DNA from: Icerya purchasi
Taxonomy: Eukaryota; Arthropoda; Insecta; Hemiptera; Monophlebidae
Assembly: GCA_039619475.1 (NCBI GenBank)
Contig: CM077116.1
Location: forward strand, 18,783,443 to 18,847,442
Reading direction: 5' to 3'
DNA length: 64,000 nt
This document shows positions 33,471-61,749 of the stretch, piece by piece (within the stretch, counting starts at the first letter, position 1; the number at the start of each line of letters is the position of its first letter). The notes below the pieces were generated by a model, which was not told the origin of the DNA, did not search any database, and saw nothing but the letters and a program-made list of their open reading frames with translations. A program made the position numbers and the translations under genes.

Positions 33471-33525
33471 ATGCATCGTTTTCGACGTGATATCGTTATC
33501 AACAACATTTCCGCTTATTTATCAA
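33471..33525 (+). CDS. cis-prenyltransferase-like gene, exon 1
   Basis: ATG at 33471 gives 18 codons (MHRFRRDIVINNISAYLS) plus one base, then donor GTAAGT. The phase fits exon 2. The helix-like N-terminus matches the short segment before 'IPxHIAFIMD' in the family. An acceptor-like TTATTTACCTCAG ends at 33461 and the frame stays open upstream (L-N-A-M), so a further 5' exon is possible. An overlapping ATG at 33466 is in the wrong phase. Confidence 0.65.
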
Positions 33526-36500
33526 GTAAGTTTTAAAACTGCACTTGTCAGAATATTTTTGTAAACTGTTACAATTTGTAAACCAATATACTTTATTATT
33601 CAAAATACTTATTTCATACTAAAATATTCGAATTAGTCGCAAGTAAAATGTAAGAATTTCGCTAGATAGCAGTATGCAAGATTTAAAAACATTTATCTAT
33701 CAAAAATCATTTCGTTGATTAACTAACGATCTAACTGATTTTTATGCACATCAGCAAATCAACAGACATATTAACAAAACATTTTAATAAATAATTTTAA
33801 TTAGTATAGATTTATATTACAATTTTAATTTACTCTTTGAAATTAAAAAAAATTATCACAAATGTAAATTTGTTTTGTAAATAATTCTTAAGAGACTTAT
33901 TCGCAAAATATGATAGTACAGTGAAAATATAAAATAATCTCCGTTATATTTTAAACCGTGCCGTTTAATTATTGTGCTCGCAATACGAACAAAATCATAC
34001 ATTTTCGCGATACATTATACGTAAATTGACAATATGTAAATCAAAAAATTAATTTAATTTACTTAATATATTAGTTTTAAATTAAATATCGAAATTAACC
34101 CTTTTTCAGCGTAACTTTTTTTATATATCATGTTATTTAGATCTACTAAGGCGGACACTATGCTTACCAGATTACATAACATATTTGATTAACGAAGTTC
34201 CTGCTTATTATAGAAATACAAAAACGTCCTATTTTGATAGAGAATTATATTTTTTAGGGTAAGTGTTTTTTTTTTCAAATTTGTTTATCTCAAACAAAAT
34301 TTCAAAAAATCCGATATATGTTCTTTGCATTACAAGTAAACATACATATGTATTATTGTTGTATTTCACTTCAGTTTATACAGTTATTTAACCCTCAATT
34401 ATAATCGCTCGTTTAGAGTTGTGTAAATACTATTACTAATTGTAAGTCATTTTTGACCTGAAAAATTTTAACTTTTAAAATACTTCTGTAATTCGTATAA
34501 TTTACAAAATAATGCATATTTCGAATACACATATGTTTGTTGATTTAAAGGCATCTATTTTTACATCCATAGTAATCGAGTAAATTTTACATTGAACTAA
34601 ATATCTATAGATGTATGTATATTTTTGCAGCTTACAGTATAAAATCCGAAAATGAACTTGGAAAAAGTTTTACTAATATTTATCAAAAATATGGGTAATT
34701 TTAAATGAATAACAATCAAACTATTACAATAACAAAAAAGTGTACATATGTATATTTTTAAAAACATCTAAAACAACAGTATACTTTTAACGCTACAAAA
34801 TAGATCACTTACATTGTACAAATATGACACTTTTTTATTAATAATTCAAATAAAGGGTATAAAATAATGTTTATGTTTGCTCACACTTAAAGTGTAATAT
34901 ATGCCTCAAAAATAGTGTCGAAGCATACTAAACACTTGACATTGCTTATTATTATAAATAGGACATGAACTACAACTTCTTGTTTTGTTTGTCTGTGTAG
35001 ATGTAGACGAAATTTCCATTATTTCATTACCAGAAAATTCAAAAACTGTACATAATAGTAGCGACGGATTCAGACAATCATGGGGGAGGGGATATAGTTA
35101 TGTAAAATCCTATGTACAGATGACAGTAGATTTGAGAAATACCTTGTTTCATACAAAGATATGTAGTTTATAATTTTTTTAAAGTAATATACTCGTATTT
35201 GCTAAATGTTAGTCAGGATTGAAAACGAAAAAGCGATTAATAAGATAGGTAATTGAAATAGAAACATGTAAAAGTTTTAACAGAGAAGGAAGTGATTTTA
35301 AAATCGATTGCAGCTGGAGAATTGTAATTAGCCGTGTGTTAATGACGAATGATGGGAAAACCCAGTCAGATGCTCGAAATTAGTGATCTTTTATATTTCG
35401 ATATAGTTATAATGCCGTTTTTTTCGATGCTGCCGTAGTGTATGTTTTGGCTTTGATGATGAATAGAATATTACTATTCGAAATGTTAGCTGATAATATT
35501 TGTGACGTGGCTTGTACCGGAAAAAGTAATAATATTTTAGAAGTCACGAAAATTTGAAGTTATTTTTAACATTATTCTTGTTCTCCATTTTTGAAAATCT
35601 GGCTACCATTTCTTTTGGTTTCAAGTCGAGATTATTATGAATGTATAGCAGTGTAGCAATGCTAATCCTGTTCATTGTCTTTCTTACGTTGTTGTTCTTA
35701 AGCAAGATTTAATCGACATAATGATGAAAATGATCGTTCAGCAAAAGCATTTGTTATAGAAATGTAGCTAGAATTTCGGAAGGTCATAAATGATTAGATA
35801 TATTACTTCATGATTTTTGTTACTTCGATAATAGTGTCCAGTAAGTTTCCTTCTTTTAAAATAGTCAGTTTTGTTTCTAGTGAATCAGTTCAGCTTTAAT
35901 TTTATATTCTGTGTGTGAAGCAAATTTTCGGATCTTTTCATTAATGAATTTAAAAAATCTATAAATTCAGGGGAAAAGGTATCAAGCATGTTTTCTAAAA
36001 AACCTGTTTTTAAGTCCACCACTGCTAGATCTAAAATCGGAATGTAAGTTTTTACTCAATAGAAAAGTCCTGTACTTCATGGATTCTCGTTTTGATTATT
36101 GCATACATGGATTTTTAATTTCAACTTCTACTTTATCAGCCATTTCTTTCGCTGTTTTAAATATTTCCTGAAATTGTAAATCGCCTTCTTCCCATTGACT
36201 GTTTAATGTTGTATATACATATATGCATCCTATAAAGTCTTCTTGTATAATGGAACTTTGTTGGAGTATAAATCAGTATATCAAAGTATCATATTAACTT
36301 CAGCTTTACCTGATAGATCTCGTGATTCTTCAAAAACAAAAGAATAGTACTTGGTAGAAGTAATTCGTTTTAAAATTTTGTCCAAAATTCTCAATCGACA
36401 GCGGTCTATCAACCCGTTTTGGATCGTTTTACTTATGTACATTGGTCTTTATATTGAATTTTTTAAGCGATTTTCTAATATGTTTTTTGCATTAACCCGA

Positions 36501-39500
36501 AATCGGGCATTTCTCTAAAAATCACCTTCATTTCTTATATGAAGACAATTTTTAAAGAGGGATCCATCATCTCTATGACCATGTAACTGTATATTTTGCC
36601 TTCCTAAGAAAATTGTAATTTTTACAATCGGAATAAGCCGTTTTATATTTTCCTGTATTTGAAATAAATTTGCTGCATTAAGACGATTTACTATTTCTAA
36701 CTGTGGTTTATAATTTTTCAAAAAATCCTTTCGTGCGTTAAGTGTATCCTCATGAAAGCGGTTCTGTAGTGTAATTAAAGTTTACCCATTTCTCTAGTCA
36801 ATTTTTTGAAATAAGTTAAAAGAAACCTTCCTAAAACTCTTAATGAAACCTTTTTTCCGAGACAATTCACGAACGATGGATAATATTCACAAAATAGACC
36901 TTTCTTCACCTAAAAAAGTACTAACCGCTCTTTATGTATTTCTAAATGCATTTTACTAACGTTGTTTTTAATTTCTTTTCCTGATATTATTTTTACAGAA
37001 AACTGAAAATGATAATCATTTGGAGAAATCCGTATAGATTTTCTAATAACAATTTTTTTGTATAGTCGTCAATTTGTTGACAAAATATAAATGCCTATGC
37101 CACTGAAAACCATGGACATCCGTAGATTTATCGTTTACATGAATACTACTGTGAATAATGAAATATCAGTTTCATCGGTGACTTATACTAACTACAAATC
37201 GAGCATATACTAAAAATCTTCATTTATAAATTTCTTCTTTAATGATGGTCTAAACAAAGCATATAAGTTTTAGGTTGTGATGACCAGATTGATACATGTA
37301 CACCAAAACAATATATTTCAAGGGCGTCGCCAGCCGATGAGCCAGGGAGGGGCAAGATAAGTTACCAGTCACCAGAGGGGGGGGGGCGCAAGATGATAGA
37401 AAGAGGATATAAGTTATTGGAAAAATAAAATTTATAAGTTGTAAAGGCTTAATATTTTATTAAACAAGAATAAAATCTTAATTAAAACATAAGTTTTCCA
37501 AATTGCCCATGATTACACGTCTATGAGTACTCATCAATGTCAGTTAATTAAAAAGTTTCAAGGCTCCAGGGGGGCAGCTGCCTTTCCCTGCTCCCCGCTG
37601 GCGACGCCCATGATATATTTCCTTTAAGTTACTTCATTATGTTCAATGTATAAGTACAATAGATTAATAAATTTAACAAATATAAATCACAGAAACAATG
37701 CGTTAAAACTGTAATGAAAATACATTTCTCTAAAAAGGAAATAGTTGTCTATAATAAAATTGTATGATAGGAAATCTTTAAAATTCGTGACAGATTCAAA
37801 AAAAAAAAGTTTTTCCACTTATTGCTAAATAAGTGTACTACTTCCTAATTCTGCTCATTTAATATACTATGAATAGTTCAAAAAGAAATTTTATTACTAC
37901 CTAGGGCGTCGTTGAGGGGGGGGCAGAGGGAGCAGCGGCCATTCCCTAGAAACTAATAGTGCTCTCACATATTAAGAATGAAGAAGGAGCCACATGTGAA
38001 GTAAAGGCTTGTTATTTAATTGCCGCACCTCGTATTATTTCTAAAAAAGCGTCATTTGTATCCTTATTCTGTGATATAACTAATTTATAACAATTCTTAG
38101 TTCAATTTCAATATTAGATTACCCTCTATTCTTTCAATTTTCTCAATTCCTTCTTTAGCTTGTAAATATTATATATGTTTGTACATTTGGATTTTAGTGA
38201 AGTCAAAGAGAAAGAATGATGACTAATCAATCAGAGATAGCGATGAGAAAGAAAGAGCAAAAAGAAAAAAATTTGAGCATGTGCCCCAAGCTACCGCCTA
38301 AACGTAAAATTAAAACGATTGTATCGGTAACTGGCGAGACTGACATCAACCAAACATTTTAACGAGGATCATAATTCAACAACGGATGACTGTAACAGAA
38401 ATGACATTGGCCACTTCGTTAATCAAATGTCGATGTTATCGACCAAAACGAAGAAAGAATTACTTGAGAAATGTTGAACGCCTCTCAAGACATATGACTT
38501 TGCCCAGGACGCAAAGCATGTAAAGAGAAAATTTAATTATTCATGGTTAGAGACGTATTCATTGTAACTGGTATACTCCGAACTCCAAAAAGGCGCCTTT
38601 TGCAAATATGGTACCTTATTTCCTCCAAATTCAAGTTCCGTTAAAGGGGTATTGGGATTTTTCATAAAGAATCCATTTTGCAGATTTAAGGATGTACACG
38701 AGCAATGCAAACGTATGTAGAAACACAATTTCATAAGGTGACACCGGAAGCTGCCAGTTTATTTCTTGAAAGTTTGCCCGTGGATGTGCAACTCAATAAA
38801 TACTCGCAGAGGGTTATTGAGGAAAGCAGAAAAGTTATTAAGTCGATTATACCTTACATTATATTTTTCGGTTCCCATGACTTACTTAGCGCTGCGAGGC
38901 AAAATCTTTTTCGAATGAATTCTCGAAATCTTATATAAGCTATGAGTTGACGCGGGTGATGTAGTCTTGAAGAAATATTTTGGACGTGAGAAAAAGAATT
39001 CAAGCTTTCGACCTGTTGATATACAAAATGAAATTATCAGCAATTGTGGTGATCTGTTTAAGGCAGATATTGCGACGAAAGTTAAAACGCAGCCATGGCT
39101 AACGAAACAGCTAACATTTCCAGAAAAGAGCAATTATCAATTGGAATACAAGAGTGAAGTCCAAGAAGTAATTATAGGATTTGTTAAGCTAAAAGATTTG
39201 AATGCAAACTCTATTGCAAAAGTCATTAATGATTTTTTAGCAGCAGAATAACTTAATCCGGAAGAATGCGTTGGATTGGGATTCAACAGCTGTTCGACAA
39301 TGTCCGAAATAAGGGATGGCGCACAAGCAATCTTGCGTAAAAAATGTAACTAAGCTTAGTAATAAATTATCTCAATGTTCTACCTGAAATTAGAAACACA
39401 ATAGGAACAACCAAAGAAATAATACAATTTTCTGCGGACTTAGTTTTGAGAAGAAAGTTAATGCCAAACATTTCCAATCTCTGGGAAACAAGATGGAGCG

Positions 39501-42500: not shown

Positions 42501-45500
42501 TTAAATATTAGTTATAATTAAATTCATAACATTTATATAAACCCTTTATAGATAAATTAAGTGTTTTTGTTGTTACGAATTTTTTTCAGACAGTAGTTAT
42601 GGGTTAATACTGAATTATTCTGTGTTTCTAATAAAAAATATTAAACAGTGTAATAAAATTCATTTAAAACGTAACACTATAATTAATTATTTCCGAAAAA
42701 AATAGGTTCAACAAAATAAATAACTGCATAAAGTGGTGTTTATGGTTAGGTGTAAAAGAGGTCAATTTTTATACATTCAGTTGTTTTGCTTACAAATGGC
42801 CAAAGGAAGAAACAGAAATTGTTGTCAGTGCATTCAAGCTATGTTTAGTATCTTGGATTAAAAATAGGTAATTAATAGCATTTTCTTAAATCTCTGTATT
42901 ATTAAAGAGGTATTTATTATTAAATTTTCATGCATTTTTGAAAGGAAATAATGTTTATAATATTAAAAGTGATTTTTTTCTTTTTTATTTTCTCACTATG
43001 TTAGATGCTCAGCAAATAAATTTTGTTTTATCGTGTTCGGTAATTATTTCAATGTAAAATCGTACGTGGGAAGTATGCATGATTTTGAAAGTTCAAAAAT
43101 AACACTATAAACAAAATTAATCTTTATTATTTGCGGAGACATTATTAAGGAATCTATGATGGAAAAAGTCAATCGCTCCTTGGTTTTTCCAGTTCTCGTT
43201 GGTGAAACCAGCGACTTATCCAGAACTGAACAAATGTCATTTTGCCTTAGATACATTGACCCTGACAACAAGGCTTTGCGAGAGGACTTCTTAAAATTTG
43301 TTCCTCTTCGTGATCTCGCTGGAGAAAACATTTGCATCATCTATTATCGACCAGCTGCAACTAAACGAAATAAATACTAAAGGGTTTGTCGGACAAGGAT
43401 ATGATGGTGCATTGTCAATGAGTGGACGCACTGAAGCTGCTCAAGCCATAATAAAAAGAAAGTGTCCATCAGCATTATACGTGCATTGCAGTGCCCATTC
43501 GTTGAATCTGGCCATCGCAGGTACTTGCAAAGTACGGAGTTTGGTCAATTGTTTAAGCACTATAAAGTCTGTTGAAAGTTTTTTTTCGCACATCGGCATT
43601 ATGTTCGTCAATATTAAAAGGAGTAATTAAAAAGCAACTGGCTGATTGTAGGAAAACGACATTAATACCAATGTGCGAAACTCGATCGATCCAAAAACAC
43701 GACAGTGTAATGCGGTGTAATGAAATCATCTTGCCTATTACGCTTACTTTGGGAAAAATGAAGACTTCAGGAAGTAATGAGACTACACAAGTGGCTAATC
43801 AGTTGCTAGTTGCGATTCAATGCGAAAAATTTCTCATTAATCTGAACATTATCAGCAAGCTCTTCTCTGTAACAATTAATCTGTGTAAATTTTTACAAAG
43901 CTCTAACTGCGATCTCGTGTGTCATCCAGTCGACGAAATAATAAGCGCTCTCGATACAATAAGGGCGCAAGCAGAGACTCAGTTCTCAGTAATATATAGA
44001 CAAGCTGGGAATCAAGAAATACAACTGAATGGCGATGACTTCACAATAGTTATGCCACGACGAGTAGGCTGCCAAAAACATCGAAGCAGAAACTGCAGAG
44101 GAATACTATAGACGCGCTTTATTTATTCCGATTATTGACCATATTATTAGTCATCTAGAGGAACGGTTCGTTAACCACAAGTCAGTTATAAGGTGCCTAT
44201 CGTTCCTAATGCCCACAAGCTTCCCATCCACACCAGCGAACTTCAGAGCGCAGTACAATTTTATGGTCCATTTCTCTGCGATGCAACCAGTTTTGAAGGA
44301 GAGATCGCGGTTTGGAAATCAAAATGGTAAAAAATAGAGATTGCGAAATTGCCCGTCACACCGATAGAAGTGCTGGATAATTGCAGCCCAGATATGTTTC
44401 CGATGATTGACAAGCTACTTTCAATACTTGTGACTCTACCTGTGTCGACGACGACACCAGAGCGAACTTTTTCTTCATTGAGAAGGCTGAAAACATTTCT
44501 TAGAAGCAGCATGGAACAGGAGCGGCTCAATAGATTGGCGCTGATGAGCATTCATCGTGATATCGATATGATCCAGAGGTAGGTTTTACTTCTGAAGGGC
44601 ATTATCGTCAAATGGAGTTTTAATAAAATTTATATTTATAAAAATAATTAAATAAAAAATATAAAAAAATGTAATATTATGTTATTTAATGTTACGTATT
44701 GCGTATTGTTAGGAATGCCCCCTCCTCAAACGATTCCTTTCAGAGGCCGTGGTCCAGATGCAACCCCCCTCCCGGCGAAATGAATTCCTGGCTACGGCCC
44801 TGATTATGTAATTTATTGGTTATCGTCAGATTTATTCGAAAGCATCAAACAATTTAAATGATGTAAAAAATGAATATTATTGAAATTTGAGATGACGGAA
44901 AAGGAAGGGAGTTTATTACAATTTATCAATCCAGATTTCGTTTGTTAATAAATAATTTGTTTATAATTTGTGATAATATATGTAAAGTTAACTAATCGTT
45001 CCATGTTAAAAATCTGATTTTATTTTTTTTCGTTATCACTTACTTTTTCATTTGTTACAATATTTCTCATTTGTTAGAACTGTGGTGGACATTTTTTATT
45101 TTCTTACGATGTACACATGAAAATTATAAAAAATTATGTCATATTTCCTAAAATTGTTTTTAAAATAATTAATAAAAATATAAATAAAAATAAGGCTTAA
45201 ATTTTTTTAGTAATTGTAATTAGAAATTATATAAGTGTTCCTAGAAATGTTATTGAAAATACTGTATTTTGTAAATTAGAATCATTTATTTGACTTGAAT
45301 TAATATATATCTGTAAATGGAAATAAATTAAAACATATTTTACTTTCACTATAGGTAAAGGGAAACGCAAGATAAATTTTACAAATCGTTAATGAACGTA
45401 ACAAAATTAATATACAATTTATTCCTATTAAAAAGAATTTTGATTTTCATTTGGTCCAAATGGTATTTCCTGCAAAAAGTAAAAGCACCCGATCCATTCG

Positions 45501-48500
45501 AACAGAATTTTAATGAAAAGTTAATTTTGAATTATTTTCATTAATTTATAAATCAACGAAAAACTTTATAATGTTTATCGTGAGTTAAATTTTCGAGTAA
45601 TATTTTTATCACTTAAATAATTGGCCTTGTTCACGGAAATAGTGACCTAAATTGTTAACATTTGGAAAAATTTATATATGTATCATATTTCTATCTCAAA
45701 AATGGCCAATCGTACACTATGACCGTTCAAGTTTTTTAGTAATTTGTGGAGTTTTCTTTGTTTTTCTATTAAAAATGTAGTCTTATTTTTAATGAAATTT
45801 AAGTTGGTGTATTGAGAAAAATCTTAATTTCTTCTTCTTTTCTATTTTAGTTTTGTAGCGCCTGCATCTCTGAAACAATGTTTTATATACCTATACTTTT
45901 GAACAACGCTATCATATTTGAATAATTTACTTGTCGTTTATTTTCAAAAAGATAAAAATTAATATTTCGCATTAATAAAGAATTAATTATATATCTGAAC
46001 TAGTGATGGGTAAAGTTTCAAATATTTTGGAATGTCACGTTACAAGTTCTAATGATCAGGAAGTAATAGGAACTTAGTTACAAAGTTACAGACTGTTTAC
46101 GAAAAGAGTAACTTATGTAATCAACATGGAAATAAATTTAAATGTATTATAAAACGTAATTATAAAAAGTTCAGTCAAGCATGAGGTTTCATGCGCTGAG
46201 GATTCCGTATGAAAGTTAACAGTAACTATAATTATTTAGTATGTAAGAAAATTTGTTTGAATAAACTTCTATTTTTATTTTACTATTTTAATTTAATGTC
46301 TTAATAAATTTCAGAAATCTTTTCTAATTATAATTTAAAACAGTAAAGCAAAATACAAATTTGAATCGAAGACTTAGACTAATTTGAAGTGCAATGTAGC
46401 GGTTATGAAAAAAAATTAATTAAATCCTTTTTTTATTTATTTCATTTTTATTTATTTTTTTAAATTATTGGTTTAGATTTAATAATACTAATATTAAGGT
46501 TTTATGATTTTTTAAAATGTGTAATTTTGTTAATCCCTACACCTATCTTTCTTGGATAGAACGATCGTTAAAGACATTTAATAAATACATAAACGAAAAC
46601 ACGCAAAAAATATTAATTAGAAATAATATTGATGCTACGTATCACTCTGCTGCGGCTGCTAGAATGTTGGTGCTCCCTGCTGGCAGGTTGGTGTACGTTG
46701 GTGATTGCATCCTGGTTTCTCGGCGAATGGGAGGGAGAGACACGGTAATCGAAAATTATAGTTTACGAATTTTGTAAATGTCACTAATTTGAAAACCGAA
46801 TTTCGAGGCGATTTGGTTACTTTGTTATCAAACTTCTTTCGGTTGCAAGACGAACTGGTTACTTTACCAAAAAAGGTCGATATAGTTCCGCGATGTGACA
46901 AAGACTGTCGTTCTACTGAGATGATTTTTAGGATTCCGTATACATATAATGTACGGAATCCTTATAAGATGGTACACAAATGACAAAAATATCAAATAAA
47001 AATCAATAATTCACGAACGGCTTGACTTATAAACTTCAAATTTGGAACATAAATTACAATTAAAATTATCTTTAAAACGATCTATAACTTGAAGATGACC
47101 GATTACCCTGGGCGGCAAAAAACCCAAAAAACCGTCAAGAATATATAATATGGTACATAAAACGACCTCAAAAATCACTTAAAAAATCATAACTCGTCAC
47201 TAGATAAACTTATAACGCTGAAATTCAAAATATAAACTACAATGCAGGAGTACTTTCATAAAATCAAAAAATTACGTTACAAAAGTTATGCAAAGTTGCC
47301 CAAAAGTTCAAAAAACAGCAAAAAATGACGTGTCCCCCCCCCTTAGCGCCGCGAGTATTGTAGTTAAAAATTTTGAATGGGGCTAAAAATACGCACATAC
47401 CCGTATATTTCTCTAGTTTGGAACATCCGGATTTCCAACTTTAAAACTGGACCCTCGGGGCGACGAAAGCTCAAAATTTTGTAAAAAAATATTTTTTTTT
47501 ATAGGCATGCGATATATCGATGGAAAGATCGCTATTTGTCGGGAACGAAACCGAATTTCATTTCCTTAACGAAACTTTCAAAGTTGCCGTAAAGTTCAAA
47601 AAAGCGCGAAAAATGAGGTGTCCCCCCCCCTAGCGCCGCGAATATTACCGATAAAAATTTTGAACACGGTTAAAAATATGCGCTTCCACGTATATTTCTC
47701 TAGTTTGGAACATCCGAGTTTCCAGCGTCAAAATTGGACCCTCGGGGCACCGAAAGCTCGAGATTTTGGAAAAAAATATTTTTTTACTTGGGCTTGTGAT
47801 ATATTATTAGAAAGATGTCTAGTAGTCGGGAACGAAACCGAATTTCATTTTCTTAACCAAACTTTCAAAGATGAGATAAAGCTCAAAAAAGCTCAAAAAA
47901 TTGCGCGTCCCCTAGCGCTGCGAATATTATAGCTAAAAATTTAAAACATGGTTAAAAATATGTACTTCCACGTATATTTCTGTAATTTGGTGCGTCCGGG
48001 TCTCAAGCTTTAAAAATAAAACTCCGGGGTGTCGAAAGCTCAAAATTTTGAAAAAAAATATTTTTTTTCCCGGTAATGTAATATATCGTTTGAAAGATCG
48101 CTATTTATCAGGAACAAAACCTTATATCATTTTCTTTACCAAAAAATTCAAAGTTGCCGTAAAGTTCAAAAAAGCGCGAAAAATGACGTGTCCCCCCCCC
48201 CTAGCGCCGCGAATATTACCGATAAAAATTTTGAACACGGTTAAAAATATGCGCTTCCACGTATATTTCTCTAGTTTGGAACATCCGAGTTTCCAGCGTC
48301 AAAATTGGACCCTCGGGGCACCGAAAGCTCGAGATTTTGGAAAAAAATATTTTTTTACTTGGGCTTGTGATATATCATTAGAAAGATGTCTAGTAGTCGG
48401 GAACGAAACCGAATTTCATTTTCTTAACCAAACTTTCAAAGATGAGATAAAGCTCAAAAAAGCTCAAAAAATTGCGCGTCCCCTAGCGCTGCGAATATTA

Positions 48501-51500
48501 TAGCTAAAAATTTAAAACATGGTTAAAAATATGTACTTCCACGTATATTTCTGTAATTTGGTGCGTCCGGGTCTCAAGCTTTAAAAATAAAACTCCGGGG
48601 TGTCGAAAGCTCAAAATTTTGAAAAAAAATATTTTTTTTCCCGGTAATGTAATATATCGTTTGAAAGATCGCTATTTATCAGGAACAAAACCTTATATCA
48701 TTTTCTTTACCAAAAAATTCAAAGTTGCCGTAAAGTTCAAAAAAGCGCGAAAAATGACGTGTCCCCCCCCCCCCTAGCGCCGCGAATATTACCGATAAAA
48801 ATTTTGAACACGGTTAAAAATATGCGCTTCCACGTATATTTCTCTAGTTTGGAACATCCGAGTTTCCAGCGTCAAAATTGGACCCTCGGGGCACCGAAAG
48901 CTCGAGATTTTGGAAAAAAATATTTTTTTACTTGGGCTCGTGATATATCATTAGAAAGATGTCTAGTAGTCGGGAACGAAACCGAATTTCATTTTCTTAA
49001 CCAAACTTTCAAAGATGAGATAAAGCTCAAAAAAGCTCAAAAAATTGCGCGTCCCCTAGCGCTGCGAATATTATAGCTAAAAATTTAAAACATGGTTAAA
49101 AATATGTACTTCCACGTATATTTCTGTAATTTGGTGCGTCCGGGTCTCAAGCTTTAAAAATAAAACTCCGGGGTGTCGAAAGCTCAAAATTTTGAAAAAA
49201 AATATTTTTTTTCCCGGTAATGTAATATATCGTTTGAAAGATCGCTATTTATCAGGAACAAAACCTTATATCATTTTCTTTACCAAAAAATTCAAAGTTG
49301 CCGTAAAGTTCAAAAAAGCGCGAAAAATGACGTGTCCCCCCCCCCCTAGCGCCGCGAATATTACCGATAAAAATTTTGAACACGGTTAAAAATATGCGCT
49401 TCCACGTATATTTCTCTAGTTTGGAACATCCGAGTTTCCAGCGTCAAAATTGGACCCTCGGGGCACCGAAAGCTCGAGATTTTGGAAAAAAATATTTTTT
49501 TACTTGGGCTTGTGATATATCATTAGAAAGATGTCTAGTAGTCGGGAACGAAACCGAATTTCATTTTCTTAACCAAACTTTCAAAGATGAGATAAAGCTC
49601 AAAAAAGCTCAAAAAATTGCGCGTCCCCTAGCGCTGCGAATATTATAGCTAAAAATTTAAAACATGGTTAAAAATATGTACTTCCACGTATATTTCTGTA
49701 ATTTGGTGCGTCCGGGTCTCAAGCTTTAAAAATAAAACTCCGGGGTGTCGAAAGCTCAAAATTTTGAAAAAAAATATTTTTTTTCCCGGTAATGTAATAT
49801 ATCGTTTGAAAGATCGCTATTTATCAGGAACAAAACCTTATATCATTTTCTTTACCAAAAAATTCAAAGTTGCCGTAAAGTTCAAAAAAGCGCGAAAAAT
49901 GACGTGTCCCCCCCCCCTAGCGCCGCGAATATTACCGATAAAAATTTTGAACACGGTTAAAAATATGCGCTTCCACGTATATTTCTCTAGTTTGGAACAT
50001 CCGAGTTTCCAGCGTCAAAATTGGACCCTCGGGGCACCGAAAGCTCGAGATTTTGGAAAAAAATATTTTTTTACTTGGGCTTGTGATATATCATTAGAAA
50101 GATGTCTAGTAGTCGGGAACGAAACCGAATTTCATTTTCTTAACCAAACTTTCAAAGATGAGATAAAGCTCAAAAAAGCTCAAAAAATTGCGCGTCCCCT
50201 AGCGCTGCGAATATTATAGCTAAAAATTTAAAACATGGTTAAAAATATGTACTTCCACGTATATTTCTGTAATTTGGTGCGTCCGGGTCTCAAGCTTTAA
50301 AAATAAAACTCCGGGGTGTCGAAAGCTCAAAATTTTGAAAAAAAATATTTTTTTTCCCGGTAATGTAATATATCGTTTGAAAGATCGCTATTTATCAGGA
50401 ACAAAACCTTATATCATTTTCTTTACCAAAAAATTCAAAGTTGCCGTAAAGTTCAAAAAAGCGCGAAAAATGACGTGTCCCCCCCCCCTAGCGCCGCGAA
50501 TATTACCGATAAAAATTTTGAACACGGTTAAAAATATGCGCTTCCACGTATATTTCTCTAGTTTGGAACATCCGAGTTTCCAGCGTCAAAATTGGACCCT
50601 CGGGGCACCGAAAGCTCGAGATTTTGGAAAAAAATATTTTTTTACTTGGGCTTGTGATATATCATTAGAAAGATGTCTAGTAGTCGGGAACGAAACCGAA
50701 TTTCATTTTCTTAACCAAACTTTCAAAGATGAGATAAAGCTCAAAAAAGCTCAAAAAATTGCGCGTCCCCTAGCGCTGCGAATATTATAGCTAAAAATTT
50801 AAAACATGGTTAAAAATATGTACTTCCACGTATATTTCTGTAATTTGGTGCGTCCGGGTCTCAAGCTTTAAAAATAAAACTCCGGGGTGTCGAAAGCTCA
50901 AAATTTTGAAAAAAAATATTTTTTTTCCCGGTAATGTAATATATCGTTTGAAAGATCGCTATTTATCAGGAACAAAACCTTATATCATTTTCTTTACCAA
51001 AAAATTCAAAGTTGCCGTAAAGTTCAAAAAAGCGCGAAAAATGACGTGTCCCCCCCCCCTAGCACCGCGAATATTACCGATAAAAATTTTGAACACGGTT
51101 AAAAATATGCGCTTCCACGTATATTTCTCTAGTTTGGAACATCCGAGTTTCCAGCGTCAAAATTGGACCCTCGGGGCACCGAAAGCTCGAGATTTTGGAA
51201 AAAAATATTTTTTTTCTTGGGCTTGTGATATATCATTAGAAAGATCTCTAGTAGTCGGGAACGAAACCGAATTTCATTTTCTTAACCAAACTTTCAAAGT
51301 TGACGTAAAGTTCAAAAAAGCGTCAGCTCCAATTAGCGGCCCCCTTCTTGCGACGCGAGTATTACAGCTATAAATTTGGAACATGGTAGAAAAAACGCGA
51401 CTCTACGTATATTTCTCTGATTTAAGACAATCGGACCCCAACTTTAGACTGAGACCTGTGGGGCACCGAAAATTCAAAATTTTGAAAAAAAATTTTTTTT

Positions 51501-54500
51501 GTTTAGGTTTGTGATATATCATTAGAAATATCGCTATTCGTCGGGAACGAAACCGTATTTCATTTTTTTAAAGAAATTTTCAAAGTTCTGAAAAGTTGAA
51601 AAAAAAAAAATAATTATGTGTCTCTCCACTAGCTCCACGAATATTACAGCTGAAAATTTTGAACGCAGCTAAAAACGTGCTGATCCCCTTATATTTCTCG
51701 AGTTTATAACATTTGGATTTTCAGTTTTAAAATTAGACCCTTAAGGCGCCGAAAGTTCGAAATTTTGAAGAAAATTTTTTATTTTTCTGACGCATGTTAT
51801 ATACCGTTTGAAGGATCGCTATCTGTCGGGAAAGAAACCGTATTTCATTTTCTTAATTGAACTTTCAAAGTTTGCTGAAAAGTTCAAAAAATCGAGAGAA
51901 TTGATTTGTGACGCGAGTATTATAGCTAAAAATTTTGAGGAAAGTAGTAAATATGGGCATCCATGTATATTTCTCTGGTTTGGAACATCTAAGTTTCCAA
52001 TTTTAAAATTAGTGACTTGGGGCTCTGAAAGCTCGAAATTTTGTAAAAAAAAAATTTTTTCAAGTGTATTATTATTGGAAAAAGCGCTATTTTTTGGGAA
52101 CGGACCCGTATTTCGTTTTCTTAACAAAACTGTTTGAAATTTACTAAAAGTTCATAAAATTCTGAAAAATGATGTGTAGCCCCGCTTGTAATTTATGTAT
52201 TGGTTCAAGATTTTGAACAAGGTTAAAAAAATGTGAGTCCCTGTTTATTTATTTACTTTGGAACATCTAGGTTTCCATCTTAAAATTCAGAACCTTAAGC
52301 GCCGAAAGCTCGAAAGTTTCAAAAATAATATTTTTTTTCCGGTCATGATCGATGGAAAGATCGTTATTTGTCGAGAACGAAACCATAAGTTATTTCCTTA
52401 ACGAAACTTTCAAACCTTGATGTTCCAAACTTGAGAAATATATGTCGAAGCGCATATGTTTAACCCTGTTCAAAATTTTTAGCCGTAATACTCGCGGCGC
52501 TAGAGGGGATGAACTGTTTGAAGTTTTTGGCAACTTTAAAAGTTTCTAAATACGGTTCGGAATTATGTTTAGAGACTCCCGTGCAACTGGCTTACGAATT
52601 TCGACTGTTACTGGTTGAATGTCGGATGGTAACATTATCTGTTGAAAGTTAATATCCGCACGAACGGATAATATTATTCCACCACGCGCACAACTAGCAA
52701 GCACCGGATTTGATTCGAGAACTTTATAGTTTTTTAGTTTTAAATGTTGGTTTTGTTTTAAGTGGGTTTTTTGAATGCACGAAATAAACAGGTTTGTTAA
52801 TCGGTGTTATTTTTCTTTTGGCTTTATCGGAATACGAGATTGCAGCGGTTTTTAGAATTTGGTTCGGATTGAAATAATTTTCGTTAGTAGTGTTAGTACG
52901 AGGGATAAGAAACGAAATAGGATCGCAGGTTTTGGTTTGGTTATTTTCATTACGAGGTGTGTTAGTGTTGTTATGAACTGTAATGAAAGGAACGGACTCA
53001 CCGCATCATTGTTTAGGTGGTACGTCCGCCTGATGAAAAACAGATGCGAATAGTATTTCGATTTGTTAAACAATTTAACGACCTATGTTAGTAAATAAAT
53101 AAAAAAAAAATATTTAATAATGGTCTAACATATGGAGAGAGTCGAAAGAAAATACCGAATTGTTAAAAAATCATCTTAGTAGAACGACAGTCTTTTTCAC
53201 ATCGCGGAACTATATCGACCTTTTTTGGTAAAGTAACCAGTTCGTCTTGCAACCGAAAAAAGTTTAATAACAAAGTAACCAAATTGGCTCGAAATTCGGT
53301 TTTCCAATTAGTGACATTTACAAAATTCGTAAACTATAATTTCGATTACCGTGTCTCTCCCTCCCATTCGCCGAGAATCCAGGATGCAATCACCAACGTA
53401 CACCAACCTGCCAGCAGGGAACACCAACATTCTAGCAGCCGCAGCAGAGTGATACGTAGCATCAATATTATTTCTAATTAATATTTTTTGCGTGTTTTCG
53501 TTTATATATTTATTAAATATCTTTGACGGTCGGCTATTCAAGAAAGATAGGTGTAGGAATTAACAAAATTACACATTTAAAAAAATCATAAAACCTTAAT
53601 ATTAGTATTATTAAATCTAAACCAATAATTTAAAAAAATAAATAAAAAAAGGATTTAATTAATTTTTCTTCATAACCGTTACATTGCACTTCAAATTAAT
53701 CTAAGTCTTCGATTCAAATTAGTATTTTGCTTTACTGTTTTAAATTATTATTAGAAAAGATCTTTGAAAATTATTAAGATATTAAATTAAAATAGTAAAA
53801 TAAAAATAGAAATTTATTCAAACAAATTTTCTTACATACTAAATAATTATAGTTATTGTTAACTTTCATACGGAATCCTCAGCGCATGAAACCTCATGCT
53901 TGACTGAACTTGTTTAACAATTCGGTTTTTTCTTTCGACTATCTTAATACGTTAGACCATTATTAAATTTTTTTTTTTTATTTATTTACTAGCATAGTGC
54001 ATTAAATTGTTTAACTAATGGAAATACTATTCGCATCTGTTTTTCATCAGGTGGACGTACCACCTAAACAATGATGCGGTGAGTCCGTTCCTTTCATTAC
54101 AGTTCATAACAACGCTAACACAAGCCGTAATGAAAATAACCAAACCGAAACCTGCGATCCCGTTCCGTATCTTAGCCCTCGTACTAACACTACTAACGCA
54201 AATTATAATAATCCGAACCAAATTCTAAAAACCACTGCAGTCTCGTATTTCGATAAAGCCAAAAGAAAAATAACACCGATTAACAAACCTGTTTATTTCG
54301 TGCATTCAAGAAACCCACTTAAAACAAAACCAACATTTAAAACTAAAAAACTATAAAGTTCTCGAATCAAATCCGGTGCTTGCTAGTCGTACGCATGGGG
54401 AAATAATATTAGCCGTTCGTGCGGATATTAACTTTCAACAGATAATGTTACCATCCGATATTCAACCAGTAACAGTCAAAATTGGTACGCCAGTTCCACG

Positions 54501-57500: not shown

Positions 57501-60500
57501 TTAAGAGGCATTTTGTAATAACAGTGATGAATGAAAATAATGGTAATAAATGAAATAAAGAATAAAAGGGAAATAAAGTTTAGAAAAAATCTTACGGCAA
57601 TATAACCAATTATTCAACTAACAACAATCTCAGAAACCATAATTACGCTCTCGAACGTAGAAAAAATTTTGTCTATTATTTGTACACTTATTTTGTATAG
57701 TATATCAAAAAATGCAATATGAACTGAGAAATAGGATTTTTGAAGTAATTAAGGTGCTTTAAAAATTTTTTTATGGTAAACGATCTTTACACAAGTTTTA
57801 CAATTAAACTCATTTAAAAGTTGTGTATTTAACCATTCTCATTAAATACATATTTAAATATGCAAATATGAGAACAGAGTGATGCAAACGTAAGTTGATG
57901 TACAATTATGATAAGGAAGACATGTTTTTTTATAAAAGGACTATACAAGTAAATAAAAACTCACAAAGCATTGACGATTTTAATAAAATGTGAGTTCCGA
58001 CGGCTAATCTCTGCGGAAATTGTTCACGTAAATAATTTTTTTTAAATCGTTTTCTTCCGAAAATGATTATTAAATTTATGTTCACTTCAGTTGAAATTAT
58101 AGCTTTGCTTTTTCCTCCACTTCACATCTCTTTTGTAACCTTCGCTATTTTCCTATAATTATAATAAACTAGTTTTATTTTTACAATTTTTATTCTGCAC
58201 GTATTTATTTTAAATGATTTTGAGTTAACGTTAGTAGTATACAAAATATTTCACATCGTTTAAAAAAAAATAAAACAACTACGAATACTGTCTATATATA
58301 ATTTATTATAAAATAAGGGAAATTTTTCTTATATAAAATATGTAATATTTGTTTAACTATTTTAAAATAAAAAGTTGGTTTCAATGCTAGTTTCGAATTA
58401 CACTTCATATACGCTGATAGATGTTATAAGCAATAACTCACACATTGCCTCTAGACCACTATTTCACTCCTTCAATTGATTCCAAAATATTATAATATAG
58501 TATTTAATATAGAAATAATGCGATCGTGTCGCGTTGTAAATGATCCCTTTTAGCATTGCTAATCAGATTTAGCTATTTTATTCATCATCTAGTCGTAGCA
58601 CGTACATATCGCCGTGTAATGAGCTAGTGAGTTATGACCAATAACAGAGCAAGCAATGTGAGAAATACATACGACACTGTACGAGTGATTAAAAGGTATC
58701 ATCTGTACTTCAATTCCTCCTGATCACTGTCTGATATTATTTCGTAGTTAATCGTTTCGTTCGTTCATTCTGTTTTCGAAGACAAGTTACATAGTTACAA
58801 TATCTACCTTTAGTTACAATGGTTACTTCTCATTTCTGGGACATAAAAGTGACAGGAGTAACGAAGTAATGTAAATACGTTATCGATTGGAATGGAACGA
58901 ACTATTTCAGAGCTCTGGAACTAGTTTCTAGTTACGTTGCTTATTACCTTACATATCACTAATCTGAACACTAAAAAATTGTAAAGCGTAGTTTTCAATT
59001 ACATATTATTGACACGAGAATCAACAGGGTGCATGTTAATAAATTGTTTAATGCTTACCGAAGGTGAAAGTTAACATCGTATAAGTTAAAAATTTTGTTT
59101 ATGCGTCTCATTGAGCAAGCAATAAAAAAAAAATACGTTAAATAAATTTTATTTGTTTTATTATGTATACATCGTTGAATAAAAGACGACTTATTTTTCA
59201 CTTGTGACTTATACCTACATTTAATGAATTCGAATTAGAACATTTGCCCTAGATTATTTGTATTATCTACTTGCGTAATATTTTAAGATTTATAATTTAT
59301 TGATTTCAGTGAGTATTTTATAAAAAATGGAATTCAAATACAGATAGTGAATCCCGTGGTTTATTTTCCCGATGATGTTGTCGAGTTGATAAAACGATTG
59401 GAAGAAATAACCCAAAATGGACATAATTTAACTGTTACACTAGCAGTATCATTCACGGGTAAAATTTTATAAACCGCTAAATAAATCACGATGTAAAATC
59501 TTTCTCACAAACGATCTCAAGTGCATTTTACATTAATGTGTAAAATACGAGTAAACAGCTTTCGATTTATTCTTTTTTAAAAAATTTTTTTTCGGCAAAT
59601 GTATTTTTATAAACTTTTAGTTATATAAAATTCGTTGTAGTTTAACAACGCCATTTTAAGTGAGTTGTTATATAAAATATTATTATAACATTGCTTGATA
59701 TATTTTGTTATGTCGCAAATTTCCCTTTCACATCTATTGCCACCTACGATCATGATGATTCTTTAGTAAGTACATTCTCGCGAGTATTTCGTTCATTTAA
59801 CAAATAATTAAATTTTAATTGATACAGTTCTAAATATTTTATGCAAAAAAGACCAAAAAGTAAATATGTTTATACGATGTGCATACATAAGTGGAGTGAT
59901 AACTCTGATGAAATTCTGTTTGGGTTATGTTTAACCATCTGTTGATTTGTAACAGATCTAGGGGTATTTTAAATTTTGTAAAATAATCCGAACTTACGAA
60001 TTTTCTATAAGAGCAATATCGACGACACACAAGTTTTACCAGGAATATCTTAATTATACAAATCATTGATGTAGATTAAAAATTAATTTAAAATGAGAGA
60101 AACGCTTCAAAAAATGAAAGAGTTATTTTTAAATTTAACGTACATTTTTAATAAATTTAAAATTTTAATATACAAATAAAAATTCTGTTTCGTTCAATTT
60201 TTTTCGTTTTGATTGAGTTCTGTATTGATGTTTTTTTTTTGTTTAAAGATTGTTAAAATGCTAATAATCTTTAATGATGTTTTGGTTTAAATACTTATAT
60301 AATTTTTAATAAAGTTATATATGTATTAAGCGCAGCATTTATATGAATACTGCACACGAGCATTGTTTTTTGTCCTCTATTTTTTTTTTTTAGTGATTTA
60401 GTTATATCACACGATTTATTAAAATTATTTCAATATGAAAATTTCAATACATTTCGCGACAGTCCCTAGGGTAAAGTTAGTAATATAAATGTTGCATTTT

Positions 60501-60742
60501 GAATATCCCATTTCTTCGATAAAATTAATTTATTATTTAAGATACAAAATTTTAAAACTGATTTAATATTTTACATAGGATCGATCGAAGTGGAAAAACT
60601 GTATTTTACAAATGTCAGAAATGGTAATAATTCAACTAGAGACAATTACGAACAACGTCTAGGATTTTATAAACACAATAAACCAGAATTGGTTATTTCA
60701 AACTGTCGTTTTAAACGCTTGATCGACTATTTAATATGGAAG
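33471..60742 (+). CDS. Divergent cis-prenyltransferase-like protein (five exons)
   Basis: Exons 33471-33525, 34141-34258, 42706-42867, 59310-59458 and 60579-60742 join in phase into 216 codons without a stop, each intron GT..AG. The product aligns end to end with the cis-prenyltransferase fold (dehydrodolichyl/undecaprenyl diphosphate synthase): LPDYITYLIN (family IPxHIAFIMD), GFNKINNCIKWCLWLGVKEV, FYTFSCFAYKWPKEE, GIQIQIV..., ITQNGHNLTVTLAVSFTG, and KRLIDYLIWK (family RLSDFLLWQ). Catalytic members extend C5 chains for dolichol. Here the Asp of the Asp-Gly-Asn motif is Asn36, the Asn of SxEN is Ala, and RxSG reads SNCR, so ordinary activity is doubtful. The last 50 or so family residues were not found. 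Introns 2 and 3 are transposon-filled. A non-catalytic subunit, a neofunctionalised enzyme or an early pseudogene remain possible. Confidence 0.82.
34141..34258 (+). CDS. cis-prenyltransferase-like gene, exon 2 (altered DGN motif)
   Basis: Acceptor ...GTTATTTAG, donor GTAAGTG. Encodes residues 19-58. LPDYITYLINEVPAYYR aligns without gaps to the IPxHIAFxMDGNRRYAK motif. The catalytic Asp becomes Asn36 and the following Gly-Asn-Arg-Arg becomes Glu-Val-Pro-Ala. Ends in the Gly of the 'G-F-x-K/N' motif, whose codon is split with exon 3. Confidence 0.8.
34970..37210 (-). mobile_element. Degenerate hAT transposon, minus strand (intron 2)
   Basis: On the minus strand, 36721-36515 encodes ENIKRLIPIVKITIFLGRQN then IQLHGHRDDGSLF and IRNEGDF. 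This matches the block 'EN...L..II..I.FCGRQ.I.LRGHRDD......NEGNF' of zinc-finger MYM-type hAT transposases. Further fragments in order toward 36300 (RILDKILKRITSTKYYSF, then FEESRDLSGKAEV) match 'RIL..I..SKYF.I..DET.D.S..EQ'. Toward 35600, KPKEMVARFSKME could be a further piece. Riddled with stops; terminal repeats not located. Confidence 0.65.
37319..37612. mobile_element. hAT-type MITE with perfect 8-bp target duplication
   Basis: Bounded by ATATATTT at 37311-37318 and 37613-37620. Terminal inverted repeats are CAAGGGCGTCGCCAGC (left) and, inverted, CATGGGCGTCGCCAGC (right), 15 of 16 matching. 294 bp with G-runs next to the ends and no coding capacity. The ends resemble those of the larger hAT just downstream (37901-40233), which may have been its source of transposase. 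Confidence 0.9.
37901..40233 (+). mobile_element. Degenerate hAT transposon, plus strand (intron 2)
   Basis: The left end CTAGGGCGTCGTTGAGG and inverted right end CAAGGACGTCGCC share 9 of their first 11 bases. The flanks ATTACTAC (37893-37900) and ATTACCAT (40234-40241) match at 6 of 8 positions, so they are probably a decayed target duplication. Inside is a broken transposase reading frame (38210-40160). Its ends are related to the neighbouring MITE. Confidence 0.75.
38210..40160 (+). pseudogene. hAT (zinc-finger MYM-like) transposase remnant
   Basis: Pieces in family order, in changing frames: MQTYVETQFHKVTPEAASLF, then IEESRKVIKSIIPYIIFFG (38705-38938); a 'DET.DISGKEQLS'-like part near 39090-39140; VQEVIIGFVKLKDLNANSIA (39150-39250); then ECVGLGFNSCSTM (39265). 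LWETRWSEKHKIIRIFMDNF follows at 39476, then EALETLTDEGNSMTRNKA. LCETRWSEKH-type and GYDG-type blocks are diagnostic of this hAT subfamily. The C-terminal dimerisation region is unreadable. Non-functional. Confidence 0.75.
40245..41215. other. Intron 2 AT-rich DNA without a recognised feature
   Basis: No motif, repeat structure or splice-compatible coding stretch seen between the hAT and the LINE fragment. Confidence 0.45.
41220..42230 (+). pseudogene. LINE RNase H and C-terminal fragment (intron 2)
   Basis: The plus-strand translation at 41278-41465 reads ITIATDSLTAV, a stop, then ILQNSSPRVIFLSVPDHAKI and PGNLMADHAAKE. This is the LINE RNase H second half ('TDS..A....' then 'W.P.H..I.GNE.AD..AK'). 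After a broken stretch, 41955-42125 gives LCHLCIYHPHTDSWKS and HLLTGCPKM, the terminal C..C...H...C motif of such ORF2 proteins. The usual WVPSHVGI reads LSVPDHAKI. Decayed and 5'-truncated. Confidence 0.75.
42706..42867 (+). CDS. cis-prenyltransferase-like gene, exon 3
   Basis: Acceptor ...AAAAATAG, donor GTAATT. Encodes residues 58-112: GFNKINNCIKWCLWLGVKEV, then NFYTFSCFAYKWPKEETEIV. It matches the family stretch GFxKLxEILxWCxxLGIxEVTVYAFSxENFKRxxEEV very closely. The conserved Asn of S-x-E-N is Ala. This is the most diagnostic exon of the gene. A hAT remnant starts about 180 bp downstream. Confidence 0.88.
43050..44802 (+). mobile_element. 5'-truncated hAT transposon (intron 3)
   Basis: The right end GGCTACGGCCCTG at 44790-44802 is the inverted form of CAGGGCCGTAGCC, the typical terminus of this hAT group. 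The matching left terminus is absent between exon 3 and 43050, so the left end is deleted. Contains the transposase remnant 43155-44582. Confidence 0.75.
43155..44582 (+). pseudogene. hAT transposase remnant with C-terminal dimerisation domain
   Basis: Blocks in order: FPVLVGETSDLSRTEQMSF, then LREDFLKFVPLRDLAGENI (43190-43330). After a frameshift near 43370 follow GFVGQGYDGALSMSGRTEAA, then CPSALYVHCSAHSLNLAIAG. After another near 43620, IPMCETRSIQKHDSVMRC. At 44349-44582 the hAT dimerisation domain LSILVTLPVSTTTPERTFSS, LRRLKTFLRSSMEQERLNRL is intact. Close to proteins annotated as 52-kDa repressor of the inhibitor of protein kinase-like. The frameshifts make it inactive. Confidence 0.85.
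44810..45990. other. Intron 3 AT-rich DNA without a recognised feature
   Basis: Strongly AT-rich and no motif or repeat arms seen before the 46-kb element. Confidence 0.45.
46169..46935 (+). repeat. Segment A, inverted copy of the palindrome loop
   Basis: Starts GTTCAGTCAAGCATGAGG and ends ...TGAGATGATTTTTAGGATTCC. Its reverse complement is present at 53165-53909 with few changes; shared blocks include GCTGCTAGAATGTTGGTG and CCCTGCTGGCAGGTTGGTG. It contains ATGCGCTGAGGATTCCGTATG near its left end, the motif that also opens the decayed copy at 22.37 kb. Open frames across it differ between the two copies and are not treated as genes. Confidence 0.85.
46936..47330 (+). repeat. Palindrome segment C, left arm
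   Basis: Opens with a small palindrome GGATTCCGTATAC...GTACGGAATCC. Contains AAGATGGTACACAAATGAC and ACCCTGGGCGGCAAAAAACC. The inverted counterpart is 56045-56410. Part of it (47215-47300) is also found at 8163-8240. No coding potential. Confidence 0.85.
47330..52480 (+). repeat. Left-arm satellite array, ~285-bp monomers
   Basis: Tandem monomers share TTTGGAACATCCG, CGAAAGCTC, AAAATATTTTTTT, GGAACGAAACCGAATTTCAT and a C-run followed by TAGCGCCGCGA. The outer monomers (47330-47560 and 51310-52480) are diverged. The middle is a homogeneous two-monomer higher-order repeat. The long open frames within it are by-products of the repeat. Confidence 0.9.
47560..51300 (+). repeat. 571-bp higher-order repeat, about 6.5 copies
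   Basis: Two monomer types alternate: one with GAGTTTCCAGCGTCAAAATT, the other with GTGCGTCCGGGTCTCAAGC. The pair repeats every 571-572 bp (equivalent points at about 48048, 48619, 49192, 49764, 50335 and 50906). Copies are almost identical. The clearest difference is the length of the C-run before TAGCGCCGCGA (9 to 12). The last copy changes from GAAAGATGTCTAG to GAAAGATCTCTAG at 51240 and then passes into diverged monomers. Homogeneity indicates recent amplification. Confidence 0.92.
52480..53164 (-). repeat. Palindrome segment B, left arm, with LINE endonuclease fragment
   Basis: Inverted counterpart of 53910-54560. On the minus strand from 52779 to about 52545 it reads CIQKTHLKQNQHLKLKNYKV then LPSDIQPVTV, a LINE endonuclease piece (ICIQETHL...LKNYKVLR...). 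A 64-codon frame on plus at 52859-53053 is conserved in the other arm but with amino-acid changes, so it is unlikely to be under protein selection. Confidence 0.75.
53165..53909 (-). repeat. Segment A', loop of the palindrome
   Basis: Reverse complement of 46169-46935 with small indels. It ends CATACGGAATCCTCAGC...CTTGACTGAAC at 53909. It separates the two palindrome arms. Confidence 0.88.
53910..54560 (+). repeat. Palindrome segment B', right arm, with LINE endonuclease fragment
   Basis: Plus-strand 54301-54534 is open for 77 codons: CIQETHLKQNQHLKLKNYKV, SRTHGEIILAVRADINFQQI and LPSDIQPVTVKIGTPV. This is a recognisable middle part of a LINE endonuclease (catalytic Glu in IQETH). It ends at a stop near 54532. 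The upstream portion (54100-54290) may be ORF1-like but is not identifiable. The fragment was captured before the arms duplicated, since both arms carry it. Confidence 0.75.
54560..56045 (-). repeat. Right-arm satellite array, about six diverged monomers
   Basis: Inverted relative to the left array, with GTTCC...AGAGAAATATA blocks near 54655, 54820, 55100, 55375, 55655 and 55940. The monomers pair individually with the diverged monomers flanking the higher-order repeat in the left arm. No 571-bp repeat is present. The sequence passes straight from the first monomer to the one with AGATCTTTCCATC, the equivalent of left-arm 51240. Confidence 0.88.
56045..56410 (-). repeat. Palindrome segment C', right arm
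   Basis: Mirror of 46927-47330: GGTTTTTTGGGTTTTTTGCC, GTCATTTGTGTACCATCTTA, and the terminal GTATACGGAATCCTAAAAA at about 56395-56411. It defines the right edge of the palindrome. Confidence 0.87.
56411..58961. repeat. Right flank of the giant element with an internal inverted repeat
   Basis: No protein motif. A diverged inverted repeat pairs 56885-56955 (GCAATGCTAAAAGGAACC, CAACGCGATACGATCAT) with 58518-58588 (inverted GCAATGCTAAAAGGGATC, CAACGCGACACGATCG). The last ~250 bp have repeated GTTAC motifs like the left end of the giant element at 46040-46125, and GATCAGGA occurs near both ends. Confidence 0.6.
59310..59458 (+). CDS. cis-prenyltransferase-like gene, exon 4
   Basis: Acceptor TTGATTTCAG, donor GTAAAA. 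Encodes residues 112-162: EYFIKNGIQIQIV, FPDDVVELIKRLEEITQNGH and NLTVTLAVSFTG. This corresponds to family 'L..H.v.irvlGdl..lP..v...i..a...T..n....l..a.sYtsR'. The G-D dipeptide usually found after the 'irvi' strand reads N-P here. It lies 348 bp beyond the right end of the giant hAT-like element. Confidence 0.85.
60579..60742 (+). CDS. cis-prenyltransferase-like gene, exon 5
   Basis: Acceptor TTTTACATAG, donor GTAATA. Encodes residues 162-216, including NNSTRDNYEQRLGFYKHN and KPELVISNCRFKRLIDYLIWK read in two overlapping parts. It corresponds to 'PDPDLLIRTSGExRLSxFLLWQ'. The arginine before Leu is kept, while R-x-S-G is replaced by S-N-C-R. The exon ends in phase 0. A good acceptor at 60888-60895 (CATTTATTCAG) would add only Leu before a stop, which would truncate the usual C-terminus. 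Confidence 0.82.
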
Positions 60743-60749
60743 GTAATAT

Positions 60750-61565
60750 TTTCTAATTATTAATACATGACAATTTAATTGTTTAAAAAGAAAGAGAGAA
60801 AATATATATCAATGTCAACAAAAAATAATAAGTTTTATCAACCAAAAAAAGAACCTCATATTTTAGTGTTTTAAAATATCTTTTACATTTATTCAGCTTT
60901 AAAGCAAAAAACTTAATGATGTTTTCATGTCATTATTCGAAACGGTTAGTATTGTAAATTTATTTTATACAAAATCGGTTGTACAATTAATTTTTTTTTC
61001 TTAAAATTATTTACGTACTTTCTTTATAATCAATGTTGGTTTATCTATTGGGACATTTCTAATTAGACCATTAGATACCACAATAACAATATATGAAAAG
61101 GCCCGAAACACAATTTACAACAAAAGCGATAACGGGATTAAATAGAATATATTTAAATATGAATTAAACTTGAAAAATAGTAAAATCAATATAAATGTAG
61201 ACGAAACATAATAGAAACGAAAAAACTAATAATGCGCCACCCGAATCAATTTTTATCAATAATAGTTCAACTTCATCGCTGTAACAGCGCTACGGTCGCT
61301 GATCGATATTTCAATATCTAAAAGGTTTTTATTAATTATTTATTTATGCTGTTCCCTCTAACTTCGAATCGGAATGTGACGTAAATTAAGCGAAAATATT
61401 AATTATAAATCGCCATAGGGTCTCGAATACCATCCCTTACATTAAAAAACACTGCTGGATCTAGTCGTTTAATTGCTCGCCAAAAATTAACGTAAATGCG
61501 TAAAATTTAATTTATCGTAGTGATCGCTATCTATCGTTATACCGTGGCAGCTTAGAAATGTATTC
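60750..61565. other. Downstream of exon 5: possible terminal exon, otherwise featureless
   Basis: CTTTTACATTTATTCAG at 60879-60895 is a plausible acceptor in the right phase but gives Leu then TAA. No sequence resembling the usual cis-prenyltransferase C-terminus ('AYAELxFTxxLWPDF') was seen in any frame here. The rest is AT-rich without features. Confidence 0.4.
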
Positions 61566-61570
61566 ACATG

Positions 61571-61593
61571 AAAAAAAAAAAAAAAAAAAAAAA
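61571..61593. repeat. A23 homopolymer
   Basis: An uninterrupted run of A just before the gypsy remnant. It may be a retroposed poly(A) tail, but no adjacent retroposon was recognised. Confidence 0.9.
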
Positions 61594-61749
61594 GTACTAT
61601 AATTATTTAGTAATAAAAATTTACAGAATTTAAAAAAAAATGAAAAAAGTATATCTCTCCCGGATTCTCATTTTTTGAAAAAAGAATTAAAAGAAAGTCT
61701 TATCGAATTTGCAAAGTCATTTCTACGGATGAATACCTTGATTCAGTTG

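Follow-up and report, generated by a model that had tools for sequence, protein, structure and literature searches.

The eukaryotic cis-prenyltransferase that makes dolichol comprises a catalytic subunit, dehydrodolichyl diphosphate synthase (DHDDS, family PF01255), and a non-catalytic subunit, NUS1/NgBR. A divergent relative of DHDDS is described here from a 64-kb stretch of the Icerya purchasi genome (C2:18783443-18847442, hereafter the window). In human DHDDS (PMC7573591), D34 binds Mg2+, the allylic diphosphate is served by R37, R38 and R85, and the site for isopentenyl diphosphate (IPP) involves R205, R211 and S213; single changes at D34, R37, R38 or R211 lower activity about 5-20-fold. 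In scale insects, PMC10960109 describes cisIDS2, cisIDS3 and cisIDS5 of Planococcus citri as DHPPS-like, with closer relatives in Coccoidea and very distant from other DHPPS.

The window gene is, on balance, probably a DHDDS paralog from a divergent scale-insect family that has become a fast-evolving pseudoenzyme; at least four of its exons (B to E) are secure and exon A is probable. A first-pass annotation had joined five GT..AG-bordered blocks of 55, 118, 162, 149 and 164 bp into 216 open codons. Blocks of these lengths were recovered, bordered by AG and GT except that the first starts with an ATG, and do join in an open frame of 648 bp. The inner coordinates were absent from that annotation, and the blocks were picked as the same-length candidates that align to DHDDS, among seven, three and four open candidates of 118, 162 and 149 bp, respectively. 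What had been described as a five-exon gene over 27 kb is indeed a multi-exon DHDDS paralog on the plus strand, but it does not end at 60742: a sixth exon lies beyond the window, and the gene, including this exon E, spans at least 42 kb. Its parts are as follows.

33471..33525, plus strand: candidate exon 1, 55 bp, open, with ATG and a strong donor, GTAAGTT; an unproven 5′ coding exon.
34141..34258, plus strand: 118-bp probable exon A with a phase-2 donor (GTAAGTG) and a second possible acceptor at 34110; reads LPDYITYLINEVPAYY.
42706..42867, plus strand: exon B, 162 bp; FNKINNCIKWCLWLGVKEVNFYTFSCFAYKWPKEE; 29.9 bits alone with the DHDDS profile.
59310..59458, plus strand: exon C, 149 bp; 17.1 bits alone with the DHDDS profile.
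60579..60742, plus strand: exon D, 164 bp; ELVISNCRFKRLIDYLIWK replaces DILIRTSGEVRLSDFLLWQ; weak alone, 8.6 bits with the DHDDS profile.
60743..64000, plus strand: start of the last intron, which runs on past the window end to exon E.
76126-76347 in window-equivalent numbering (C2:18859568-18859789), plus strand: exon E, phase 0, acceptor TTTCAG; reads GVHIFHLHKLWVEFSFFDFLLCLLCYI...

Exon E lies 12 kb past the window end and carries the LW-EF motif of the family's last exon; searched against the genome, the joined protein matches it at C2:18859553-18859654. Splice sites were chosen from among all AG and GT dinucleotides close to the ends of each homologous segment. The intron phases at the A-B, B-C, C-D and D-E joins, 2/2/1/0, agree with those of four paralogs in the same genome (T2a, T2b, C1g and C2b, listed below) wherever their exons were found: the phases of B, C and D each recur in all four, the phase-2 donor of exon A recurs in the three with an exon A, and three of the four joins first annotated (A-B, B-C and C-D) are thereby matched. 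Exon B has the length of T2a exon B, and exon C that of exon C in both T2a and C1g. These conserved intron positions and phases fit the DHDDS gene lineage.

The annotated resemblance to PF01255 was borne out. The 216 codons as given score 72.5 bits (E-value 4.8e-20) and exons B-D alone 69.7 bits (3.4e-19); adding exon E to B-D brings the E-value to 6.4e-24, joins with exon E reach 85-88 bits overall, and exons A-E score 88.5 bits over profile positions 20-211 of 219. The curated cut-off of 27 bits is exceeded by the 216-codon join, by A-E and by B-D alone. The 216-codon product matches human DHDDS with an E-value of 3e-12, and human DHDDS is also the best solved relative (6w2l, 6z1n; 1.8e-15). 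In a scan of 5486 open reading frames from the window and eight fetched loci, the single-exon E-values are 3.8e-8 for B, 1.2e-4 for C, 0.08 for D and a weak 0.015 for E. The in-order alignment with the cis-prenyltransferase family stands for B, C and D; the 118-bp block does not reach significance by itself, and the 55-bp block is without homology.

As a control for chance, 8000 random phase-compatible GT-AG assemblies were drawn from the 27 kb of the annotated gene, 4000 on each strand and with block lengths matched to within 15 bp, and scored with a profile built from DHDDS proteins. The real set scores 72.0 bits, against a maximum of 10.9 bits among the 2711 scored plus-strand assemblies that include none of the true exon acceptors and 2.1 bits for the best minus-strand assembly. 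The earlier statement that chance assembly is very unlikely therefore holds for B, C and D; blocks 1 and 2 have no separate support.

The active site sets this gene apart from its paralogs. In alignments read by eye, the window gene keeps one of the seven listed human residues, R211. Four of the seven positions fall in exons B and D, and three of those four are replaced: exon B has W at R85 (with A at N82 and F at E81), and exon D has S at R205 and I at S213. The probable exon A has N, P and A at D34, R37 and R38 (LINEVPA). The claim of residue loss rests on R85, R205 and S213, in exons B and D. Judged in the same way, T2a, C1g and an intronless copy keep all seven residues, T2b six of the seven, and C2b all four that its found exons cover. 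The product of the window gene very probably makes no prenyl chains by the normal mechanism, and its annotation as cis-prenyltransferase-like can be kept in part: it is a PF01255 paralog with DHDDS exon structure, but most catalytic residues are gone, so it is not an ordinary enzyme.

The protein keeps the cis-prenyltransferase sequence pattern but has lost most of its Mg2+-, allylic diphosphate- and IPP-binding residues. Its most likely role would be that of a non-catalytic partner, as NUS1/NgBR is for DHDDS, and the intact T2a, C1g or intronless copy would be the candidate partners for dimerisation; alternatively, it may serve as a prenyl-lipid binding protein. For the window gene we infer exon A and its start codon, and for its product the fold, the dimerisation and that it is expressed.

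The pattern of substitution points to a protein-coding past. Over the 186 codons of exons B-E, identity to C1g at codon positions 1/2/3 is 0.47/0.57/0.33, compared with means of 0.27/0.29/0.27 and maxima of 0.37/0.39/0.37 in 1000 shuffles; with the other four paralogs, second positions are 0.51-0.57 identical and third positions 0.25-0.36. Third positions are near saturation and second positions are not, as expected of a gene that has long been changing as a protein, which indicates long evolution under protein-level selection.

Searches of the genome with PF01255 and the profiles gave five further loci, six with the window gene:

C2:357107792-357115871: T2a, a conventional DHDDS paralog.
C2:357123296-357139943: T2b, in tandem downstream of T2a, divergent (CDGNRT, RTSVHKR).
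C1:195323085-195335160, minus strand: C1g, a DHDDS-like paralog.
C2:212792769-212811219: C2b, exons B-E open and in phase, with a C-terminus that ends soon after the core.
C2:337220003-337221103, minus strand: intronless full-length copy with intact motifs.

No last exon of T2b was found in 9.6 kb of downstream DNA, nor an exon A of C2b within 10.7 kb upstream, and exon C of each has more than one acceptor with the right phase. The intronless copy is 69% identical to an assembled protein of 332 residues (P0001), with which it shares FLTVQC where the others have FLTWQ. Its closest named relatives come from two scale insects, Planococcus citri and Parthenolecanium corni, and it resembles an old retrogene that has been conserved. 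When the whole genome was searched with the joined protein, no clear second copy of the window gene emerged among 13 scored candidates. The own-genome search returned ten rows, namely the gene's own exons A-E (five), two known paralogs (one with an E-value of 1.25) and three matches at 0.36-4.8 that were read as chance. One of these, a putative second copy at C2:6470405 (E-value 0.36), was rejected on this ground, though a 50-residue stretch is 34% identical. The 216-residue query found no relative at an E-value of 0.001 or below (77 candidates), which says little, since the species' transcripts are probably outside that database and the nearest protein to the intronless copy is only 69% identical.

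A profile of the divergent paralogs matched six proteins. The best is a P. citri protein named 'isoprenyl transferase-like' (P0121), 52% identical to C1g over 74%; the other five resemble, by eye, prokaryotic undecaprenyl synthases. C1g is likely the ortholog of P0121 (support 95/96) and probably an old scale-insect gene. In a tree built from 18 of the 26 alignment rows, the window gene groups with C1g, P0121, T2b and C2b with support 99/99, long branches being in play. Within this divergent group, its placement with C1g and P0121 has support 77/27 and that with T2b and C2b a p-value of 0.48 in the approximately unbiased test (p-AU); any such placement is unsafe because the branch of the window gene is so long.

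Several points weigh against reading this gene as a pseudoenzyme in use. The 118-bp block ranks only 123rd of 843 scored candidates with an exon-A profile; as exon A does not reach significance by itself, the loss of D34, R37 and R38 rests on an inferred exon. No methionine occurs in exons A-D or in the part of E that resembles the family, and exon E, read after LLCYI, has no family similarity. The GC content by codon position (0.37/0.29/0.29, against 0.32 in the introns) gives little sign of coding, and the branch of the window gene, at 6-8 changes per column, is the longest in the tree.

The 5′ end deserves separate consideration. With a profile of divergent paralogs the 118-bp block ranks 321st of 904, and its replacement by an unrelated block loses 3-4 bits; no better exon A was found within the 64-kb window, where no other stretch was significant either. 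Three features keep it as a probable exon A: a GTAAGT donor in phase 2, its place in the order of exons, and an alignment of LPDYITYLINEVPAYY to DHDDS MPKHIAFIMDGNRRYA that extends the match to that protein. We take exon A to correspond to the MDGNRR-bearing segment of DHDDS. For the 55-bp block there is no homology; the three paralogs whose exon A was found show no intron at this place and seem to carry their start codon in exon A. This block would put a methionine 28 residues before the conserved proline, a length that fits the roughly 22-30 in the paralogs with exon A; open ATG..GTRAG blocks of at most 200 bp occur in the window at 0.16-0.27 per kb per phase. In the absence of a methionine in A-D, the start would need some upstream exon if the gene is live, and the start codon is at present unproven.

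These same features would be expected of a recently dead pseudogene, a gene that was long functional and then lost its start or first exon while its later exons are still intact, which we consider unlikely, though a serious contender. The lack of a methionine in A-D fits it, and so does the fact that none of the exon A candidates scored across the 64-kb window was significant, as do the unrelated C-terminal read-through, the loss of most catalytic residues and the longest branch in the tree. However, exons B-E retain an open frame and undamaged splice sites. In a simple neutral simulation with assumed rates and assumed settings for indels and base composition, run 600 times per step, the chance of keeping both an open frame and intact splice sites is 0.127, 0.045 and 0.007 at 0.02, 0.03 and 0.05 substitutions per site. 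Drift could be only very recent, because survival falls below 5% beyond about 0.03 substitutions per site; if the gene is a pseudogene, it is very young. A pseudogene would also leave unexplained the replacement of the active site alongside conserved second codon positions.

An extension of the pseudoenzyme reading, which we regard as quite doubtful, is a second heteromeric cis-prenyltransferase specific to the scale-insect lineage, composed of a divergent C1g-type catalytic subunit and the window gene in a reinvented role of NUS1/NgBR. Were this true, the second complex would be used for some specialised terpenoid, for example a wax, a pheromone or a special dolichol, and the C1g type would have been kept since before the Icerya-Planococcus split. 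It is very improbable that the gene encodes an active cis-prenyltransferase with altered chemistry that uses other residues, for instance to couple short chains or irregular backbones into terpenoids of pheromones or wax. According to PMC10960109, enzymes for the irregular pheromone backbone of mealybugs and scale insects are unidentified and P. citri has divergent cis-IDS, which leaves room for such an enzyme; against it stand the replacement of R85, R205 and S213 in exons B and D and the activity losses of the human enzyme changed at D34, R37, R38 or R211. Chance assembly of unrelated open blocks has next to no probability: plus-strand GT-AG open blocks within 15 bp of the block lengths are common (59, 22, 45 and 46 candidates), but the control scores, the same phases in the paralogs and a further exon in order downstream reject it for B-E together, although chance may account for the 55-bp block and partly for the 118-bp one.

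Two elements of other kinds lie in the intron between exons B and C:

43111..44582, plus strand: hAT transposase remains, with a PF05699 hAT dimerisation match at 44331-44579 (E-value 2.4e-11).
47291..51891, no strand assigned: tandem array of a 282-bp unit in 16.1 copies, detected with Tandem Repeats Finder (TRF).

A weak DUF4371 match at 43111-43377 stays below its cut-off. The tandem array is the source of repeated near-identical open frames of 188 residues, and the one such frame that was scanned has no Pfam match. The annotation of transposon debris across the gene holds in part, in view of the hAT remains at 43.1-44.6 kb and the tandem array at 47291-51891. Elsewhere in the window, an open frame at 3938-4726 on the plus strand encodes a CCHC zinc knuckle (PF00098, 21.5 bits) and is probably the first open reading frame of an element of the long interspersed nuclear element (LINE) type. 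With short exons over more than 40 kb of repeats, the DHDDS paralog is easy to miss.

Searches of the open-licence papers in PubMed Central returned a single paper on scale-insect cis-prenyltransferases (PMC10960109) and no entry that names this Icerya gene. By that paper the family is already known in kind from a mealybug; new, as far as those searches go, are the Icerya members, the exon structure that they share and a member that has lost most of its active site. The mealybug DHDDS-like genes were reported without known function, and the same kind of family is found here at six loci in one genome. Its probable pseudoenzyme member makes possible a concrete test of a regulatory-subunit role for a cis-prenyltransferase. 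P. citri cisIDS2, cisIDS3 and cisIDS5, like P0121 (known here without a cisIDS name), are likewise divergent DHDDS-like paralogs within Coccoidea; P0121 and C1g keep the catalytic residues, whereas the window gene is without most of them.

An identity with NUS1 itself was rejected, no NgBR chain being among the 26 structure hits at an E-value of 0.01 or below; by eye, the RxG motif is absent from exon E read to its stop, with the C-terminus as predicted. The window gene shares with DHDDS a profile match over most of the domain, the exon phases of DHDDS-type paralogs and the best solved relative; it differs in being only about 25% identical and in keeping one of the seven listed active-site residues. 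With NUS1/NgBR it would have in common a cis-prenyltransferase-like sequence that lacks a working active site, but by sequence and intron phases it is related to DHDDS.

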